From positions 1-50,769 of the forward strand of contig QIAU01000152.1 in NCBI GenBank assembly GCA_003225055.1: a stretch of 50,769 nucleotides of DNA. Direction: 5' to 3'. Numbering within the stretch: position 1 is the stretch's first letter; every line of letters begins with the position of its first letter. The translations under genes were made by a program, and so were the position numbers. Below, in pieces: positions 1,818 to 31,462 of the stretch. The notes under the pieces are model-generated. The model saw only the letters and a list, made by a program, of their open reading frames with translations. It was not told the DNA's origin and ran no database searches. Source of the stretch: Acidobacteriota bacterium. GTDB taxonomy: Bacteria > Acidobacteriota > Terriglobia > Terriglobales > Acidobacteriaceae.

Positions 1818-4800
1818 CTAGAAGTTCAGCTTCAGTGCGAGCTGGACAAGACGCGGGTCGCGCGCCAGTAAGATTTGGTTGAACACGGGGCTGGTCATGT
1901 TGTTCGACGAGCCGCCCGTGCCCGGTTGGATCGGATTTGTGTGGTTGAAAGTATTGAACGTCTCCAGCCGGAATTGCCCGACCAAGCGTTCGGTGAAATT
2001 GACGTTCTTGAACATGCCAAGGTCGGTACGCCAGAAGCCGGGGCCGCGCGCCGCACCCGGCCGTTCCGTGCCAATGTTGGTTTGTCCAGTGTAGGGAACG
2101 CAATTCGCGGCCGTTCCGTAGCAGACGATTGCGGGATTCGTGGTGAGCGGACCGGCGTTGTACCACTCCCCGTTCGTGTGGAAGCACGGCGTCGAGGTGG
2201 CGCACCTGGCGGCCGCATCAGGATTGCCGATCTGATCCGGTCGCAGCGAGCACGGCGTACTGCCCAGGCAGCCCGTTCCGGCAGCGTCAACCACGTTCGC
2301 TCCGGAAACAAAGGGGGTCACGGGCAGACCGGTCTGGAAGGTCTGGACACCGCTGATCTCCCAGCCCCCCAGAACGTGCCCCAGCAGCCCGCGCTGCTCC
2401 TTGAGCCACGGGAGGTCCCATACGAAATTAGCGGTAACTACGTGCCGCCGGTCCGCAATGTTGGGACCGTAGTTGTTGGGGAAGATGGCGGCGTAGCTCT
2501 GCGGAATCACTGCGCCGGTGCTGCGGTCGGCTTGGTCGGTGGTCAAGCCGTGCGACCACGTGTAGGCAATATTGACAAGCGAGTTGCCCGCGAACTTTCT
2601 CTCGACCTGCGCCTGGAAGGCGTTGTAGTTGGAGGTGTAGATTTCCTCGAAATCATTAGCGCCGGCATACCCGATGTGGGGACGTAGAACATTGAGCAGC
2701 GTTGTGTTATTGCTGGTCACACAGGGGCGACCGTTGCAGGCCGTGCCTCCCGCACCCGTACCGCTCGCCGCACCCGTGATCTGTATGGCGTTCGGTCCGC
2801 TGGTACAGACATTCGGAGCGGCACAATTCAACCACGCCTCCGGGGCCGGGGCGTTGGTATCAATGTACCCCGGCAGGTGGATGCCGTTGCTGCCATAGTA
2901 GCCGACATCCACCAGCCAGCTTGGCGTGACTTGGCGCTGGATATCGAGGCTCCACTGCTGGGTATAGGGGGACTTGTAGTTGATCGGGATGCGCATATTG
3001 ATTGTTGACGCCCCCGAACTGCTGGCCGTGGTGGTCGATCCAGTGGGATTGGCGAAGGTAACGTTGGTGAAGCTCAGGTTGGTGAGGAACCCAGGGTTCA
3101 GGCCCACATTGAGTTCGGGATTTCCCATCTCGAGACCGCCGTCAAAGAACATGCCATAACCGGTGCGCACGGAGGTGCGACCGTCACCAAAGGGATCCCA
3201 GGCGATGCCCACACGCGGGGCGATGGCATGGTTGAACTCTTTACCGACCTTGCTTCCATAGGGGGATTTCGTTCCCACAAAGCCGTTGTAGGTCGGCGGG
3301 TTCGCAAAGATAAACCCGTTCAATGGAGTGTAGTTGGGGTTGCAGGTGCTGCGGGTAGGAATGCCGTTCACCAGCGTCACGTCAAGGTTGCCGTTGGGAA
3401 GAACGCAGGGTGCCTTGGAAGGATCCCACAGCGCAGGATCAAAGTTGCTTAACCGGCTGCTGCCTCCGGGTCCGCTGGCGTCGGTCGGCTGACGGAAAAA
3501 GGAATGCCGAACACCGTAGGTGAGGGTCAGGTTCGGCTTGATGCGCCAGGTGTCCTGTCCGTAGTACTCGAACTGGTTATCGAAAACATTAGCCGTGACG
3601 TCGAGTGATGCCTGTGCGAAGGTACTGGCGTTTCCTAACAGGAAGTTGGCCCAAGCCTGTTCGAATGAATTGACCCTAGTAGCGCTGGGAGCGTTGGTGT
3701 TGAGGAAGCCAAAGGATCCGTTATTGGAGCCGCTGAGCTGGTTCTCGTGCTTGTTATAGTGATAGACAATGCCCCCGAACTTCAGGGTGTGGGAGCCAAT
3801 GACCCTGGTGAGGTTGCCGAAGACGGTCTGATTGCGGTTGTAGTCGTTGTAGGGACCAAAAGCGCTGACACCGGTCCCAAGGGGCGCGCTTGAGATCCCA
3901 AGAGTGATCGTGGGCACCCGGCCCAGCACATTGGTGAACGGCAGATTGCTCAAGGCAGCCTGAACATCCGGCGAAGTGGTGAAGTTCTCGGCACCGGCCA
4001 GGTGGCTGAGAATGGCGCCATAAGAGAAGCCGTAGCCGAAATCGATGAGGAACACAGGTGACAACGTGGCTGCCACATGGATGTTGTACTGATGGCCGGG
4101 AGAGTTGGTCGAAGTGGTGGCGATGTTGTCGATGGGATAAAAGGTAAAGAGCCCGCCGGCTTCCACGGTCGGAATACTGTCGTTCATGTACTTACCGTTA
4201 ACCGCCAGCTTGCTGCCGAAGACGTGATCGATCTTGATCATGTCCTCGCGAAAATTGTTGATATTGCGCAAGGTGGAAACGATGTTGAAGGTCCCCGAGT
4301 TGATCGGGGGGAATTTCGAATAAATGTCTTTCACGTAAGCGGCGGCTACTGGACTAACGTTGCTGACGGTCGTTCCGTAGGACTGGCAGGGACCATTCGT
4401 GCCGTTGGTAACCACCCAACTGGTACAAACCGGATGAAGGAACGTTCCGTTGAGCATCCCTGGTGTGGGGACGACCGCCGTAGTGTTGGTATACGTAATA
4501 ACGCGGCGCGCTTCTTCGGAAACGAAAAAGAATGTTTTATTCTTCTGTTCGTAGATCTTCGGAATCCAGAGCGGACCGCCGAGCGTGCCCCCGAAATCGT
4601 TATAACGCAACCGGGGGCGTGCCACGGGAGGGGCGGTTGCCGAGTGCATGTTGAAGTATTGATTCGCGTTCAGATCGTCGTTGCGGAAGAACTCATAAAT
4701 CCCGCCATGAAGGGCGTTGGTCCCTGAGCGGGTGATCACATTGATTTGAGCTCCCCCGGAGCGGCCAAGTTCCGGATCATAAACACCGCGAACGATGCGG

Positions 4801-5489
4801 AACTCGGAGATGGCATCCACGCTGGGGAAAGAGAGCAGGGTGAGATTGGAGCCGCGGTCCACGTTGTCCATGCCATCCACGAGAAAGTTGTTCTGCTCGC
4901 GGCGGGCGCCATTGACCTGAAAACCCACCACATTGGTGGCGGAGCCACCGAAGGGGTTGGTAGCGCCAACGTAGTATTGATCCGTACTGTTGCCGTCGCT
5001 GACCCCGGGCACCAGCGTAATGAGCTGCTCCCATACGCGATTGTTCATCGAGAGCTCGCGTACCTGAGTTCCAGTAACCACGCCGGAGGCAACCGCGTTT
5101 TGCAGATTCACCTGCAGGGCAGACGCTTCGACAGTGACCTCCTGCGTTTGCGAGCCGACCTGCAAGGTCGGGAAGAACGTCAGCTTATCGTGAACGTTGA
5201 GGACGATCCCAGTCTGCACGAACTTCTGAAAGCTCGGGGCTTCGACGGTCAGCGAATAGTGACTGACCGGAAGCTGGGGGAAGGAGAAGTCTCCCGTGCC
5301 ACCGGTCGTGAGCGCGCGAACATTGATATTCTTGTCGGTATCCCTGAGTGTGACTTTGGCGTTGGGAACTACTGCGCCACTCGGATCCTTCACAGTGCCT
5401 GCAATGGACCCTGTCGTTTCCTGCGCCCATGTGTCGGCACCCGAGAGCAGCGCGGCTAGCAAGCACAGCAATATGACCCTGAACCGCAT
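1818..5489 (-). CDS. Oar-like TonB-dependent outer-membrane receptor with carboxypeptidase-regulatory N-terminus
   Basis: The 1223-residue product has a signal peptide (residues 1-23, ending TWAQ). A carboxypeptidase-regulatory-like beta-sandwich follows at about 25-110 (GSIAGTVKDPSGAVVPNAKV). Next come a plug-like region at about 120-280 and a very long 22-strand-type barrel ending in phenylalanine (LALKLNF), as outer-membrane barrels do. This architecture matches the Oar/CarboxypepD_reg receptors that acidobacteria carry in many copies. Uptake of large ligands such as oligosaccharides or peptides is inferred from the family. The ATG at 5489 is chosen over upstream in-frame starts because GGGGAGG lies 4-5 nt before it and the signal peptide starts there. 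No susC/susD pair, TonB or transporter adjoins it. The neighbouring GH5 glycosidase is suggestive of glycan use but not proof. Confidence 0.9.
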   Translation of the reverse strand: MRFRVILLCLLAALLSGADTWAQETTGSIAGTVKDPSGAVVPNAKVTLRDTDKNINVRALTTGGTGDFSFPQLPVSHYSLTVEAPSFQKFVQTGIVLNVHDKLTFFPTLQVGSQTQEVTVEASALQVNLQNAVASGVVTGTQVRELSMNNRVWEQLITLVPGVSDGNSTDQYYVGATNPFGGSATNVVGFQVNGARREQNNFLVDGMDNVDRGSNLTLLSFPSVDAISEFRIVRGVYDPELGRSGGAQINVITRSGTNALHGGIYEFFRNDDLNANQYFNMHSATAPPVARPRLRYNDFGGTLGGPLWIPKIYEQKNKTFFFVSEEARRVITYTNTTAVVPTPGMLNGTFLHPVCTSWVVTNGTNGPCQSYGTTVSNVSPVAAAYVKDIYSKFPPINSGTFNIVSTLRNINNFREDMIKIDHVFGSKLAVNGKYMNDSIPTVEAGGLFTFYPIDNIATTSTNSPGHQYNIHVAATLSPVFLIDFGYGFSYGAILSHLAGAENFTTSPDVQAALSNLPFTNVLGRVPTITLGISSAPLGTGVSAFGPYNDYNRNQTVFGNLTRVIGSHTLKFGGIVYHYNKHENQLSGSNNGSFGFLNTNAPSATRVNSFEQAWANFLLGNASTFAQASLDVTANVFDNQFEYYGQDTWRIKPNLTLTYGVRHSFFRQPTDASGPGGSSRLSNFDPALWDPSKAPCVLPNGNLDVTLVNGIPTRSTCNPNYTPLNGFIFANPPTYNGFVGTKSPYGSKVGKEFNHAIAPRVGIAWDPFGDGRTSVRTGYGMFFDGGLEMGNPELNVGLNPGFLTNLSFTNVTFANPTGSTTTASSSGASTINMRIPINYKSPYTQQWSLDIQRQVTPSWLVDVGYYGSNGIHLPGYIDTNAPAPEAWLNCAAPNVCTSGPNAIQITGAASGTGAGGTACNGRPCVTSNNTTLLNVLRPHIGYAGANDFEEIYTSNYNAFQAQVERKFAGNSLVNIAYTWSHGLTTDQADRSTGAVIPQSYAAIFPNNYGPNIADRRHVVTANFVWDLPWLKEQRGLLGHVLGGWEISGVQTFQTGLPVTPFVSGANVVDAAGTGCLGSTPCSLRPDQIGNPDAAARCATSTPCFHTNGEWYNAGPLTTNPAIVCYGTAANCVPYTGQTNIGTERPGAARGPGFWRTDLGMFKNVNFTERLVGQFRLETFNTFNHTNPIQPGTGGSSNNMTSPVFNQILLARDPRLVQLALKLNF

Positions 5490-6152
5490 AACGCCTCCCC
5501 TGCTTGAATAAGGGCTAAATTTACTGGCTGAATCACCAAGAACGTGCACAATTGGGACCCCTGCCGAGCGGCTAGCATCGGGGCAACGCCGGCAAAGCCA
5601 ACCGACAGGACGAAGTCCCGCCTGCTGAAAGCACAATTTGTTAAGCAACCGAAAGGTCTTTCATTGTGCCTCGCGTGTGGGTTGCGAACACACTGGCGCT
5701 TTGGATTGGGAAAGGTTGGTTTCACGAATCTGCGCAAGCCAGAATGTGCAAGAAGCCACACTCGTTAGAGCAACTCGCCTTCCAACGGGAAGGGCATTTT
5801 ACGGCAGGAACGACTTGTCTGGTCAACAAATCTACTGCATGTTTCCTGTGGAAGTTCCGAAGCCTGCTCCGGATTTTTGTATTCTCGTATGGTTTTACAT
5901 AGACGGCCCAGGTGCAGCGCTTGCAAAGCGTACCGGAACAGGCACGGCCGGGAAGCGAGCGAGCTCGACTAGATGCGTGCACGCGGTCGTGCTTTCCGGA
6001 AACTCCGTCCGACCTGGAAACCCGGAGGTTATGATTTGTACCCGTGGTGAGCGTAAATGCTTCTTCTGCGAAGAGCACTTTTTGAAGCATTTGCCGCAAC
6101 AGCTCTCGCGAACCCTTGCTTCGTCTTGACCAGCCTCTCTAAGCGGCTGTTC
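5490..6152. other. Gene-free stretch upstream of the receptor gene
   Basis: About 660 nt lie between the receptor start and the 3' end of the anti-sigma gene. Several open frames cross it, but none has a ribosome site, a recognisable domain or natural composition. It presumably holds the receptor promoter. I see no clear hairpin or repeat. Confidence 0.5.
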
Positions 6153-7754
6153 TCAGGCCGCTCGTGTCGCTCGTGAACCCTGGTACAGCTGCCAGCTGAA
6201 TGCCCCCAAACCTAGGCAAATCACAGCCAAGCGGACCAACCCGCCAACATAAGGGATGAATCCAATGACGGTGAGAATCAACAGACCCACCAGTAGCCCC
6301 AGTAGCCAGTCGCGCCTCGTGGCCCCGGCTGGCTTCAGAAGTATCCGCCCAAGGAAGGCTCCGACCCAAATCTTAGTCAGGTAGATCGCAGCCAGATAGG
6401 CCGCCAACAACATTAGCGAGACCGGGATGCCAACCAGTGTGATGCATGCCACGATTATGGCCACTGGGACGCCGGCCAGGACGCCGATCCCCAGTCCGAG
6501 GCTGCGCCAGCCCAAGCCCACTCCCTGAGTGCAGGCCTCGAAAAAACCGGGAAACAGCGCAAGGCCTAACCATCCCACCAGCATGGCCGCGGCGAGCCAG
6601 ACAGCTTGGTGCAAGTAGAATCTCGGGCGCGTGAACTGGCTCTTTCTTACTCGCACTTCGATGTCGCGTTTGCCCGCAATAGTAGCGCCGTCGGCGATGT
6701 GCACGTCTTTCAGTTGGTGCACGCGAGCGCTCAGGTCGCCGCCCACCCGAGCTGTGTTAGTCAGGGTGAGGCTACCTCCCGCCATGGTCAGTTCACGGCC
6801 GATACTGCCGCTCACCTCGGCATTGCTAGCGAAGATGGTCGCGCTGCGCCTTACTTCTCCCTCCAGGCTGACGTCGCCGGCGCCAACCACGATACCTTCG
6901 CCCACGCGAGCCCGGTTATCCACACGCAAGGATTGCACCCAGCCGTAAATGCTGTGGCCCAATTGTCCGTCCAGGTCGAGCGACTGCGAAAAATTGTAGA
7001 TGCGGCCTTCCACGGTTCCGCTGACCACCGCTCTCTTGGCAAAACTGACCAGGTCGCCTTTGACACTGCCACTCACCTCCACAGTACGCCCGAAAGCCAG
7101 CAAGTCCCCATTGACCACGCCTTCCACACGCACGGTGTTGCCGGCGGCCAAGAGGGTGTCGTCCACGGTCTCATTCGCCGCTACGGTGACAAACTCACCG
7201 TGACGCCGCTCCAGAGCAAAGCTGGGCAACGACAACGTAAGCAGCACGATCAGCAGGTGCAGGCCCGGCTGGTGTAGCCGCCATCGGCGTCCCAGCAGCA
7301 CTGCGCCACCCAACAGCAAAAAGAGCCCCCCAACCACAGCAGCGTAATCGGCCAGCATGGCAGTACCTCCGTGTGCGAAGTAGTAGGAAAGGTTGAAGAA
7401 CAGGTTGCTGAGGCCACCTGTGCTAAAGGGATTGAGCCATTCCAGCGCTTCCGGAACTCGCAGCTTTTCGATCCAAGCGGAAGAGATCGACCCTAGCGCC
7501 AGCACCGCAGCCAGCGCCGCCAGATCACCCCACACCCAGGACAGCCGCAAACGGGGGAAAACCGCGGAGCCGGCTGCATCTTCCGGAAGCTGGTCCAGGC
7601 TTTCGCCCAGAACTCGATTCTCAGCGCGCAATGCGTCCACCAGTCTCCGGCAGCGCGGGCACGTGGCTAAGTGGTCTCGCAGGCGCCGCGCTTCGTCCAC
7701 CGCCAGTTCGCCGTCCACGAAGATGGCGCACGTCCGTTCCGAATAGCATTCCAT
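6153..7754 (-). CDS. Zinc-finger anti-sigma factor fused to bactofilin-like polymer-forming domain and membrane segments
   Basis: The 533-residue protein begins with a zf-HC2/ZAS anti-sigma domain with H28-x3-C32-x2-C35 plus C3 and C9. Two or three membrane segments follow (about 75-165). A long run of short hydrophobic/glycine repeats (about 175-370; NGDLLAFGRTVEVSGSVKGD and similar) is typical of a right-handed bactofilin-like beta-helix. At least four more membrane helices end the protein (about 385-520). It lies 3 nt downstream of the ECF sigma gene, so it is very probably that sigma factor's membrane anchor and inhibitor. The beta-helix lies between membrane segments and probably faces the periplasm, where it could sense envelope state. 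That sensing role is inference. Confidence 0.85.
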   Translation of the reverse strand: MECYSERTCAIFVDGELAVDEARRLRDHLATCPRCRRLVDALRAENRVLGESLDQLPEDAAGSAVFPRLRLSWVWGDLAALAAVLALGSISSAWIEKLRVPEALEWLNPFSTGGLSNLFFNLSYYFAHGGTAMLADYAAVVGGLFLLLGGAVLLGRRWRLHQPGLHLLIVLLTLSLPSFALERRHGEFVTVAANETVDDTLLAAGNTVRVEGVVNGDLLAFGRTVEVSGSVKGDLVSFAKRAVVSGTVEGRIYNFSQSLDLDGQLGHSIYGWVQSLRVDNRARVGEGIVVGAGDVSLEGEVRRSATIFASNAEVSGSIGRELTMAGGSLTLTNTARVGGDLSARVHQLKDVHIADGATIAGKRDIEVRVRKSQFTRPRFYLHQAVWLAAAMLVGWLGLALFPGFFEACTQGVGLGWRSLGLGIGVLAGVPVAIIVACITLVGIPVSLMLLAAYLAAIYLTKIWVGAFLGRILLKPAGATRRDWLLGLLVGLLILTVIGFIPYVGGLVRLAVICLGLGAFSWQLYQGSRATRAA

Positions 7755-28210: not shown

Positions 28211-28268
28211 GGTGAGAAATCGCCGTTGCGCTCACTGACTGGGTCGTGAGCGCTATCGCCTGATAGCG
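28211..28268 (+). repeat. Dispersed intergenic repeat, copy 3, extended by two stem-loops
   Basis: The repeat core GAGAAATCGCCGTTGCGCTC runs into a perfect 8-bp stem GCGCTCAC (28228-28235) / GTGAGCGC (28246-28253). A second stem CGCTATC / GATAGCG (28251-28257, 28262-28268) with loop GCCT follows and overlaps it by 3 nt. It lies between two convergent genes and could also act as a bidirectional terminator. Confidence 0.65.
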
Positions 28269-28342
28269 ACAGTTTAATGGTGAATCCCCGCCCTGTGTCT
28301 CGAACGAACAGGGAGACCAGGACGGGGCATCCCGTTCGGAGA

Positions 28343-29808: not shown

Positions 29809-29934
29809 TTAACTCTCTCGCACAATACGACCTGCATTGTTGGGCCGGGTTAGCCGGGTTTCGTCTATCGCGCACCTTTCCGTAACGATCGACAACGCAC
29901 TGATGTTCATCCCTATGGGTCAGCCGCAGGCCCG

Positions 29935-30003
29935 TCAGGCCGCCATCTCCGACAGGAATTTGGCGAAAGAACGGATCGACTTCAGCTTGTCCTCCCGTAA
30001 GCC
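29935..30003 (-). pseudogene. Detached C-terminal piece of the gene at 30276
   Basis: The minus strand encodes GLREDKLKSIRSFAKFLSEM-AA and a stop. This reads as the natural continuation of the plus-strand fragment at 30276-30582 ending RLSEEEL. The two pieces now face opposite ways, with an inversion boundary near 30003-30007. Confidence 0.6.
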
Positions 30004-30006
30004 GCC

Positions 30007-30156
30007 GGCAAGGGCGGACACATCCGGACCGTCCCCATTCCAGAATGGGTCAAAGCCGCGCTCGATCAGTGGACGGCCGCAGCCGGGGTAAGGGAGGGAC
30101 GGATCTTTCGAGCCGTCGCCAGGACAGGAAAGGTGTGGGGCAATGGATCTTTTTGA
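30007..30156 (+). pseudogene. Middle part of a tyrosine recombinase, inverted
   Basis: The plus strand reads GKGGHIRTVPIPEWVKAALD, then QWTAAAGVREGRIFRAVART and GKVWGNGSF, then TGA. This is the beta-hairpin and following helices of the catalytic domain of XerC/phage-type integrases. It continues the minus-strand fragment that breaks off at HWAVVDLI near 30628. The order and orientation show that this segment has been flipped relative to its N-terminal half. Confidence 0.8.
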
Positions 30157-30275
30157 CCTCAGAACGGACCTGCAGCCGCAGGAAAGAGATGTTGAATGTG
30201 TCACAGTGAAAGGCTCCACTCCTGTAGAAAAGGCATCTCGGCAAGGAATAGAATGCCGCCCCGGAGGATCGGAAC

Positions 30276-30582
30276 ATGACCGGCCCGTCTGCGACTCAAG
30301 ACAGCTATCCCTACCAGAACGAACCGATTTGGTCGAGGTCAGAAAAGGCTGTCGCCCGCACAGCCTTCGACGCTGCTCTGAAGCGGGAGCTTCACGAGGT
30401 AATGCACGAAACAAAGCAGATGGCCAATCAGATCTAAGGAACCCGCGGACCTGTGGGGTTTGGAACATTACCTGACCCAACGTCGTAAAGAGATCGAGCG
30501 CAAGTACGACTATCGGTATTCGCAACTCACGCAGGTGTTTGGGAGGCTTTTGCACGAAAGCCGACTCAGTGAGGAAGAGCTG
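30276..30582 (+). pseudogene. Frameshifted small helical gene, cut by the rearrangement
   Basis: ATG at 30276 with GGAGG 8 nt upstream. The frame reads MTGPSATQDSYPYQNEPIWS and on to HEVMHETKQMANQI, then TAA. One extra T at 30435 explains the break, because the next frame continues KEPADLWGLEHYLTQRRKEI, ERKYDYRYSQLTQVFGRLLH and ESRLSEEEL. It then runs directly into integrase sequence. Its own C-terminus lies on the other strand at 29935-30003. I do not recognise the family. It is a charged, helical protein of about 120 residues. Confidence 0.65.
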
Positions 30583-30627
30583 CGCTATCTGGGCTGCAAA
30601 CAAAATCTCGAGCATCCGGTGAACGAT
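30583..30627 (+). pseudogene. C-terminal end of a tyrosine recombinase
   Basis: RYLGCKQNLEHPVND corresponds to the segment around the catalytic tyrosine (TERYLG) and the final helix of this integrase family. It is fused in frame to the preceding unrelated gene. It meets the N-terminal half of an integrase on the opposite strand within the shared bases GATC at 30625-30628. Confidence 0.65.
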
Positions 30628-31181
30628 CAGGTCCACCACCGCCCAGTGCGCCTGGCGCATCTGGACCTCATCCAGCTCTAACCCGACCAGCTCCGATCTG
30701 CGTAGGCTACAACCAAACAGCATGGCCAGCATTGCAAGTCTCGCTTGGCACGCATGCTATCGCCATAAGCATGTTTGAGCACTTCTGAACTTTGCTCTGC
30801 GCTCAACCAGTTGCCGGAGCGAAACCCAAGCTGCTTGACCCCTTTCACTCGGCTGATCCCTGCAGCCAACTCGGGACTCAGCAAGCCTGAGTCGGCGGCT
30901 TCGTGAGCGAGGCGGCGCACGGCTGCCAGTTGTTGGTTGATGGTGTTTGCAGCCAGACCGCGTGATTCCAAGTGCATGCGGTAGCGAACGACTACGATGC
31001 GATTGAAGGCCAGTCTGGGTTCGGAGCAGTACCAAGCGATGAATTGGTCGATACTGTACTCGTAAACGCGGCGCGAGGCTGGCGAGCCGAGGCTATTGAG
31101 CACGGCCAGCTTGCAGTGATCCGGATCCGGTAGGCGAAGCGCCCGGCGACAGTAATTCGGCTTGATTCTCTGTTTGCCCAT
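30625..31181 (-). pseudogene. N-terminal part of a tyrosine recombinase
   Basis: The minus-strand frame reads MGKQRIKPNYCRRALRLPDP, then the SAM-like core-binding domain (EYSIDQFIAWYCSEPRLAFN and GLAANTINQQLAAVRRLAHE). At RAKRD one base is missing. The restored frame gives LAMLAMLFGCSLRRSELVGL, with the first catalytic Arg in SLRRSE, and breaks off at HWAVVDLI. GGAGG lies 9 nt before the ATG. Such integrases cut and rejoin DNA by a tyrosine nucleophile. Here the histidine and tyrosine half is missing from this strand, so it is inactive. Confidence 0.8.
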
Positions 31182-31462
31182 GAACGACGGCCTCCCATGC
31201 CGCAGGATTGGAACTACGGCACAGACCGCCTGGGCGATGCAAGCATTGGCACTAGGTAAGGGTTACAGGGTTTTGAGCGCTATGACCTGATCTCGTCAAC
31301 TATGCCTTGCGTATATCTGGATTTCATGTCATCTGCCCGCAATCAGCCATCAGTACGGAGTACTAGTTTCATGTTGCCTCACTCACACTTCATCCCCGTC
31401 ACTGCCCGGTCGCAAGGATGGCATATCATGGCGCCCCCCACGGACTTCACAAAAACTAGGCG

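Follow-up and report, generated by a model that had tools for sequence, protein, structure and literature searches.

According to the part of PMC3414803 that deals with them, RIT elements (recombinase in trio) carry tyrosine recombinases and have inverted repeats near their ends. As portrayed in that part of the source, they resemble the acidobacterial unit analyzed here, which likewise combines a tyrosine recombinase with inverted repeats near its ends. However, RIT elements are described there as containing three overlapping recombinase genes in ∼3.5 kb, whereas our unit has one recombinase in ∼1.5 to 2.7 kb; having one recombinase rather than three adjacent ones, it was rejected as a RIT element. 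A single integrase lay inside the unit in both relatives for which open reading frames were listed (loci L061 and L118). A further integrase-like open reading frame was seen by eye outside the unit in L061, and extra weak integrase matches occurred in L128 and L129. The integrase is a PF00589 tyrosine recombinase whose best NCBIfam match is XerC and which lies nearest the XerC/XerD models, scoring below the cut-offs of all 10 NCBIfam models listed (120 versus 335 bits for XerC). Compared with XerC/XerD-like recombinases, the unit is short and has an FRP-like partner, and the copy that we analyzed is dead. Scores for the integron integrase models were also below cut-off (48.4 versus 265 bits for TIGR02249 and 22 versus 435 bits for NF011946).

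In PMC10172135, FRP-like proteins (FRPLs) are already reported from acidobacteria, their function outside cyanobacteria is described as unclear, their sporadic distribution is interpreted as many sporadic losses, and FRPL genomes are stated to contain no OCP; its main text holds no words beginning with "integrase" or "transpos." Among the matches listed for the open-licence literature, no description of a recombinase-FRPL linkage was found. Acidobacteria, tyrosine recombinase, and terminal inverted repeat were not found together in the open-licence literature, and the passage of PMC8138268 does not concern a recombinase-FRPL unit. Acidobacteria, tyrosine recombinase, and inverted repeats do occur together in at least two papers (PMC3414803 and PMC8352920), and fluorescence recovery protein occurs together with integrase in at least two. 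The loci analyzed here differ from described FRPLs in that the gene often adjoins a recombinase in a repeat-bounded unit. In chromothripsis-like clusters, breaks are clustered, fragments are reoriented, one is lost, and joints have short overlaps. The scrambled copy analyzed here resembles such clusters in its clustered breaks, reoriented fragments, one loss, and short overlaps; unlike them, it is smaller than 1 kb and lies in a bacterial relic. No bacterial chromothripsis-like case was named in the titles or abstract beginnings among the matches listed.

The window, i.e., the whole stretch of 50,769 nucleotides of contig QIAU01000152.1 that was analyzed, carries integrase pieces on both strands, at the positions given in an earlier note made from the sequence alone. 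Alignment to L061 revealed that two genes are scrambled together, the integrase and an FRP-like gene (FRPL; PF18032); the latter is the other gene that the note had seen between the integrase pieces, and it is itself split. Integrase piece A (positions 30624 to 31181, minus strand) covers the N-terminal SAM-like domain and the start of the catalytic domain and ends, as had been reported for near 30628, at HWAVVDLI (∼30624 to 30628). Its homology to L061 reaches further upstream, to 31318, and its frame is broken near 30735. Piece D (30583 to 30628, plus strand), inverted relative to A, encodes the C-terminal RYLGCKQNLEHPVND that the note had placed at 30583, with the tyrosine that we take to be the nucleophile. 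The spacer and the 5′ part of the FRP-like gene (30146 to 30585, plus strand) are also inverted, with a start codon at 30276 and a frame break near 30435. Piece B (30006 to 30150, plus strand) is likewise inverted and carries the continuing segment GKGGHIRTVPIPEWVK from 30007, again as noted before. The 3′ end of the FRP-like gene, comprising LREDKLKSIRSFAKFLSEMAA and the stop codon (29934 to 30005, minus strand), has kept the ancestral orientation. No bases are shared at the joint between this 3′ end and B (30005/30006), ∼4 nt (ATCT) are shared between B and the spacer (30146 to 30150), where segments C and D are absent, and CGC is shared between the FRPL 5′ part and D (30583 to 30585). At the right joint, between D and A (30624 to 30628), the shared bases postulated in the note were present, their length being 5 nt (CGATC) instead of GATC.

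Neither the integrase nor the FRP-like protein is encoded by an intact reading frame in the window copy. Segment C, ∼170 bp of integrase sequence (L061 positions 5620 to 5788), is absent. We take the catalytic residues of a tyrosine recombinase to be Arg, His-x-x-Arg, and Tyr in one chain; in the window this set is not in one chain, segment C (with HDLRR and LGH in relatives) being missing and the Tyr piece sitting on the opposite strand from piece A. In Pfam searches, both minus-strand integrase pieces gave integrase domains below curated cut-offs only (16.0 versus 27.1 bits to PF00589 for 30602 to 30732, minus strand), and the piece at 30001 to 30153 (plus strand) had no Pfam match. The FRP-like fragment scored 30.7 bits to PF18032 in one search, above the cut-off of 26.6, and a 73-amino-acid open reading frame of the window scored 23.5 bits, below it. 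Since a frame break occurs both in the N-terminal half and in the FRP-like gene, we regard the window copy as decayed; the frame breaks, and the absence of a right end repeat, are consistent with a dead copy. An open frame at 30460 to 30681 is chimeric: the core of the FRP-like gene continues in frame into the integrase tail RYLGCKQNLEHPVND, probably by chance.

All five window pieces were found by blastn on one strand, collinear and at 82 to 89% identity, in Terriglobia MAG contig JAIQFP010000021.1 (genome G074). This locus was retrieved as L057 by searching 60 family genomes for matches to the initial part of the FRP-like gene, and the block map was drawn on L061, a larger stretch of the same locus. 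Window positions 30624 to 31318 (minus strand) correspond to L061 positions 4790 to 5475 (83.0% identity), 30006 to 30150 (plus strand) to 5474 to 5619 (83.6%), 30583 to 30628 (plus strand) to 5789 to 5834 (89.1%), 30146 to 30585 (plus strand) to 5831 to 6274, and 29943 to 30005 (minus strand) to 6273 to 6335. Read in the direction of the genes, the order in L061 is A, B, C, D, spacer plus FRPL 5′ part, FRPL 3′ end; in the window it is A, inverted D, inverted spacer plus FRPL 5′ part, inverted B, FRPL 3′ end, with C gone. Compared with the relative, the rearranged interior spans ∼800 bp and is bordered by a 5′ part of the integrase and a 3′ end of FRPL, both of unchanged orientation. The G074 copy is also frame broken, and its order is the same as that of open units elsewhere (e.g., L116 and L118). 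Further loci with the integrase followed by the FRP-like gene on one strand support this order as ancestral, and, as judged from these alignments, L061 shows the ancestral order. The comparison with a homologue and the search of relatives for the ancestral order that the note had proposed thus gave all five blocks collinear in L061. A collinear relative, which the note had held would indicate misassembly, does exist; that inference was too strong, as the relative is another genome with the ancestral order.

Mixed strands inside the unit (blocks overlapping positions 0 to 1400) were found in none of 120 nonwindow locus hits. These come from 192 loci examined, 128 of which matched the reference unit; several of the 120 are overlapping fetches of one place, and in 82 the alignment covers 600 nt or more. 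At L087, L125, and L128, opposite-strand matches are confined to the unit ends, outside positions 0 to 1400, and L144 and L146 have internal deletions in the unit. At L144 positions 3002 to 3354 lies another relic, in which, through an internal deletion, the middle of the integrase runs directly into the 3′ end of the FRP-like gene on one strand. In one other genome of the window's genus, there was no match to piece A and only an integrase tail remnant was seen.

An origin of the pieces from several integrase copies is disfavored, as one collinear relative has all five blocks at 82 to 89% identity and the paralogues in the window's own genome are far more divergent. Other integrase matches in that genome had 53 and 58% identity in one search and 34 to 59% in another (13 of 14 candidates scored). 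For the FRP-like gene, the best paralogue, on contig C169, had 62% identity over 39 residues. DNA matches inside the unit comprised a 26-bp exact match (30472 to 30497) on contig C215 and short matches of 75 to 80% on contigs C259 and C80. The genome (G000) also appears to be an integrase graveyard, with 37 PF00589 matches, 30 of them above cut-off, and many covering part of the domain.

By breadth-first search, the window order is three inversions away from the ancestral order, or two events if a transposition is allowed, the loss of C being extra. The view that the recombinase is scrambled and did not arise by a single inversion therefore held. The reason given for it, a gene lying between the integrase pieces, fails alone, because one inversion with its ends in the integrase and in the neighboring gene also puts part of the neighbor between the pieces; a single inversion is ruled out because piece D lies beyond the FRP-like fragment. 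The at least two rearrangements claimed in the note may instead have been one multibreak event. Evidence from both sides is available for three of the five ancestral breakpoints, and for all three the sides agree to 2 to 4 bases: A ends at L061 position 5475 and B starts at 5474, D ends at 5834 and the spacer starts at 5831, and the FRPL 5′ part ends at 6274 and the 3′ end starts at 6273. These breakpoints were mapped on one relative, 11 to 18% diverged, with an error of a few bases. The joint overlaps are 5, 3, 4, and 0 nt. In 20,000 random inverted joins, the mean overlap was 0.70 nt, with 6.0% reaching 3 nt, 2.1% reaching 4 nt, and 0.5% reaching 5 nt; in 20,000 random same-strand joins, it was 0.69 nt, with 5.8% reaching 3 nt and 1.9% reaching 4 nt. 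Enumeration of all histories showed that every three-inversion history recuts at least one or two earlier joints. The minimum is one recut for two placements of C and two recuts for the other placements and when C is lost first. The chance of two recuts falling within 4 nt is roughly 2.5e-4; one recut is less improbable.

Since the breakpoints are balanced, overlaps of 3 to 5 nt occur at three of the four joints, and the recuts are improbable, we moderately favor the reading that the scramble was made in one event of multiple breaks and rejoining within a decayed copy of the recombinase-FRPL unit. Five breaks would have freed four fragments, namely, B, C, D, and the spacer with the FRPL 5′ part. 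End joining at 0 to 5 nt of shared bases would then have restored three of them, all inverted, with D rejoined out of order and C lost. With up to 4 candidates scored per genome, the search gave neither an intermediate nor an empty orthologous site, and how many steps there were, and in which order, is therefore what we infer. In favor of this reading, the genome has a Ku gene, open over 286 amino acids; on the other side, no LigD was seen by eye among the open reading frames of at least 200 amino acids in the 12 kb around it.

A possible, if somewhat unlikely, course is stepwise decay through three successive inversions, or through one inversion and movement of the 46-bp piece D, with a separate deletion of C. 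Three reversals are indeed enough, and a 5-nt inverted repeat (GATCG/CGATC) links one breakpoint pair. One or two earlier joints would need a second cut, however, and the intermediate order was absent from the 120 nonwindow locus hits, 82 with at least 600 nt aligned and several of them repeat fetches. Histories that recut only one joint exist for two placements of C, which weakens the case against stepwise change. Replication template switching, in which several microhomology-guided fork jumps between strands copied the pieces in a new order, is less probable still, and we consider it unlikely. The microhomology, present at three of the four joints, fits it as well as it fits the single break-and-rejoin event, and the short inverted piece D, 46 bp long, looks like a templated insertion; on the other side, every segment that was kept occurs a single time, and its ends match. 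Template copying would more often be expected to leave duplications or unmatched losses.

Misassembly, which might be suspected in a draft genome of 301 contigs (7.4 Mb, 98.7% complete), is very unlikely, since the assembly yielded no second close copy of the unit, the joints at 30583 to 30585 and 30624 to 30628 are ∼40 bp apart and fit within one short read, and the pieces are individually decayed. Least probable of all, and very unlikely, is that the recombinase rearranged its own gene at pseudosites or that the locus is a programmed switch: the likeness of breakpoint p3 in L061 to the end repeat (10 of 15 positions), attractive at first, is not significant against all positions, as a match at least as good occurs at 2.4% of unit positions, the remaining four breakpoints score 8 of 15, which 40% of positions reach, and no relative is flipped inside the unit (0 of 120 nonwindow hits). 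The joint sequence had no match in viral contigs, and the open reading frame spanning the FRPL-D joint had none in a plasmid collection. Most likely, the scramble represents neutral decay and not a switch. The relic nevertheless offers a complex local rearrangement in a bacterium at nearly base-level resolution and with the ancestral order known.

The linkage of the integrase with the FRP-like gene is a more interesting result than the scramble. The FRP-like match started 83 to 110 nt past the end of the integrase match in 16 of 18 eligible loci (L112 to L114, L116 to L123, L127, L132, L133, L136, and L137) and was absent downstream of the integrase in the other two (L124 and L125). The eligible loci were drawn from 37 found in a contig scan and include the G074 locus (L112); each carried a nearly complete integrase with at least 79% identity to the G074 one and extended for at least 450 nt beyond it. 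Among less similar integrase loci with enough sequence, none of four had an FRP-like gene downstream. Nucleotide distances of the integrase and FRPL agreed across the 16 units (Mantel r of 0.71; 0 of 5,000 permutations as high). Intact relatives scored 70.7 and 73.2 bits to PF18032 (cut-off, 26.6), and the intact relative L116 scored 87.7 bits to PF00589 (cut-off, 27.1). The intact acidobacterial unit is small and probably mobile; it comprises a tyrosine recombinase gene and, ∼100 nt beyond it, an FRP-like gene. L118 additionally carries a PRiA4_ORF3 gene.

Viewed from the FRPL side, the linkage is looser. PF18032 was present in 15 of 150 family genomes, and of 16 PF18032 loci, 8 (the window included) have the integrase of the unit in the flanks retrieved with them, and the other 8 lack it there (L066, L067, L070, L075, L076, L078, L079, and L080). 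In two of the latter, L079 and L080, the match is confined to the later part of the FRP profile; L079 retains an end motif. On a contig labeled as a Xanthobacteraceae MAG (L134), we found an integrase of the unit's family, which would mean either cross-phylum transfer or a misbinned contig. Intact relatives place the FRP-like protein together with a tyrosine recombinase in one compact unit bounded by repeats, and its function is therefore testable. As a tentative and rather doubtful proposal, the acidobacterial FRP-like protein may be a working part (e.g., a directionality or regulatory factor) of an undescribed tyrosine-recombinase element bounded by inverted repeats. If so, this would help explain the patchy spread of FRPLs, so far seen as many sporadic losses, and would suggest a route by which the cyanobacterial FRP ancestor traveled. 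Carriage by a recombinase would in any case offer transfer as an alternative to sporadic losses. The relic itself is most likely a well-resolved neutral accident, and the recombinase-FRPL unit is the part worth following.

The end repeats were defined by the motif AGGCGATA[AG]CGCTCA upstream of the integrase, with an inverted copy 1.4 to 2.5 kb past the integrase start. Both were present, with at most 3 substitutions, in 13 of the 16 FRPL-bearing eligible loci (not in L113, L132, or L133). In 9 of the 13, the left motif lay 99 to 110 nt before the integrase; in L117, L118, L119, and L123, the distance was 297 to 971 nt. The true left end of L118 is uncertain because genus-mate homology starts ∼38 nt before the integrase and not at the left motif 297 nt upstream. 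With at most 2 substitutions, the motif gave 35 matches in L112 to L147, the loci from which it was derived, versus 1 after single-base shuffling. Across 120 family genomes, the exact pattern gave 30 matches in 22 genomes versus 3 for the reversed control. Most locus pairs lose homology near the unit edge, but some have additional stretches in common; in genus mates of G150, the unit lacks the flanks that adjoin it in L118. Searches for an empty site, with the window flanks against 61 genomes (at most 4 candidates scored in each) and with L118 and its flanks against 24 genomes of one genus (up to 12 scored), found none. Because of this, and because some pairs share stretches beyond the unit, we infer the mobility of the unit and do not state it as observed.

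In the window, a decayed left end repeat lies at 31274 to 31288 (minus strand), 3 substitutions from AGGCGATAACGCTCA, and no inverted partner of it was found in the window. A second copy of the end motif, at 28247 to 28261, is in direct orientation to it and may end another element; being direct and not inverted, it was rejected as the right end of the window unit. At 29906 to 29945, just past the FRPL 3′ end and at the place expected for the right repeat, lies a TTCATCCCTATGGGT stretch with one copy in the window; L133 has a similar stretch ahead of its integrase. The L117 unit is flanked at both ends by a CCTTGACATCCCCTCTTATAGA-type sequence in inverted copies, and the right end of L137 is flanked by sequence of this type, with TTTTATAGA, which suggests that these flanks may be palindromic insertion targets. 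Just downstream of the DUF4760 gene of the window, positions 28283 to 28333 match several places in G015, G025, and G028.
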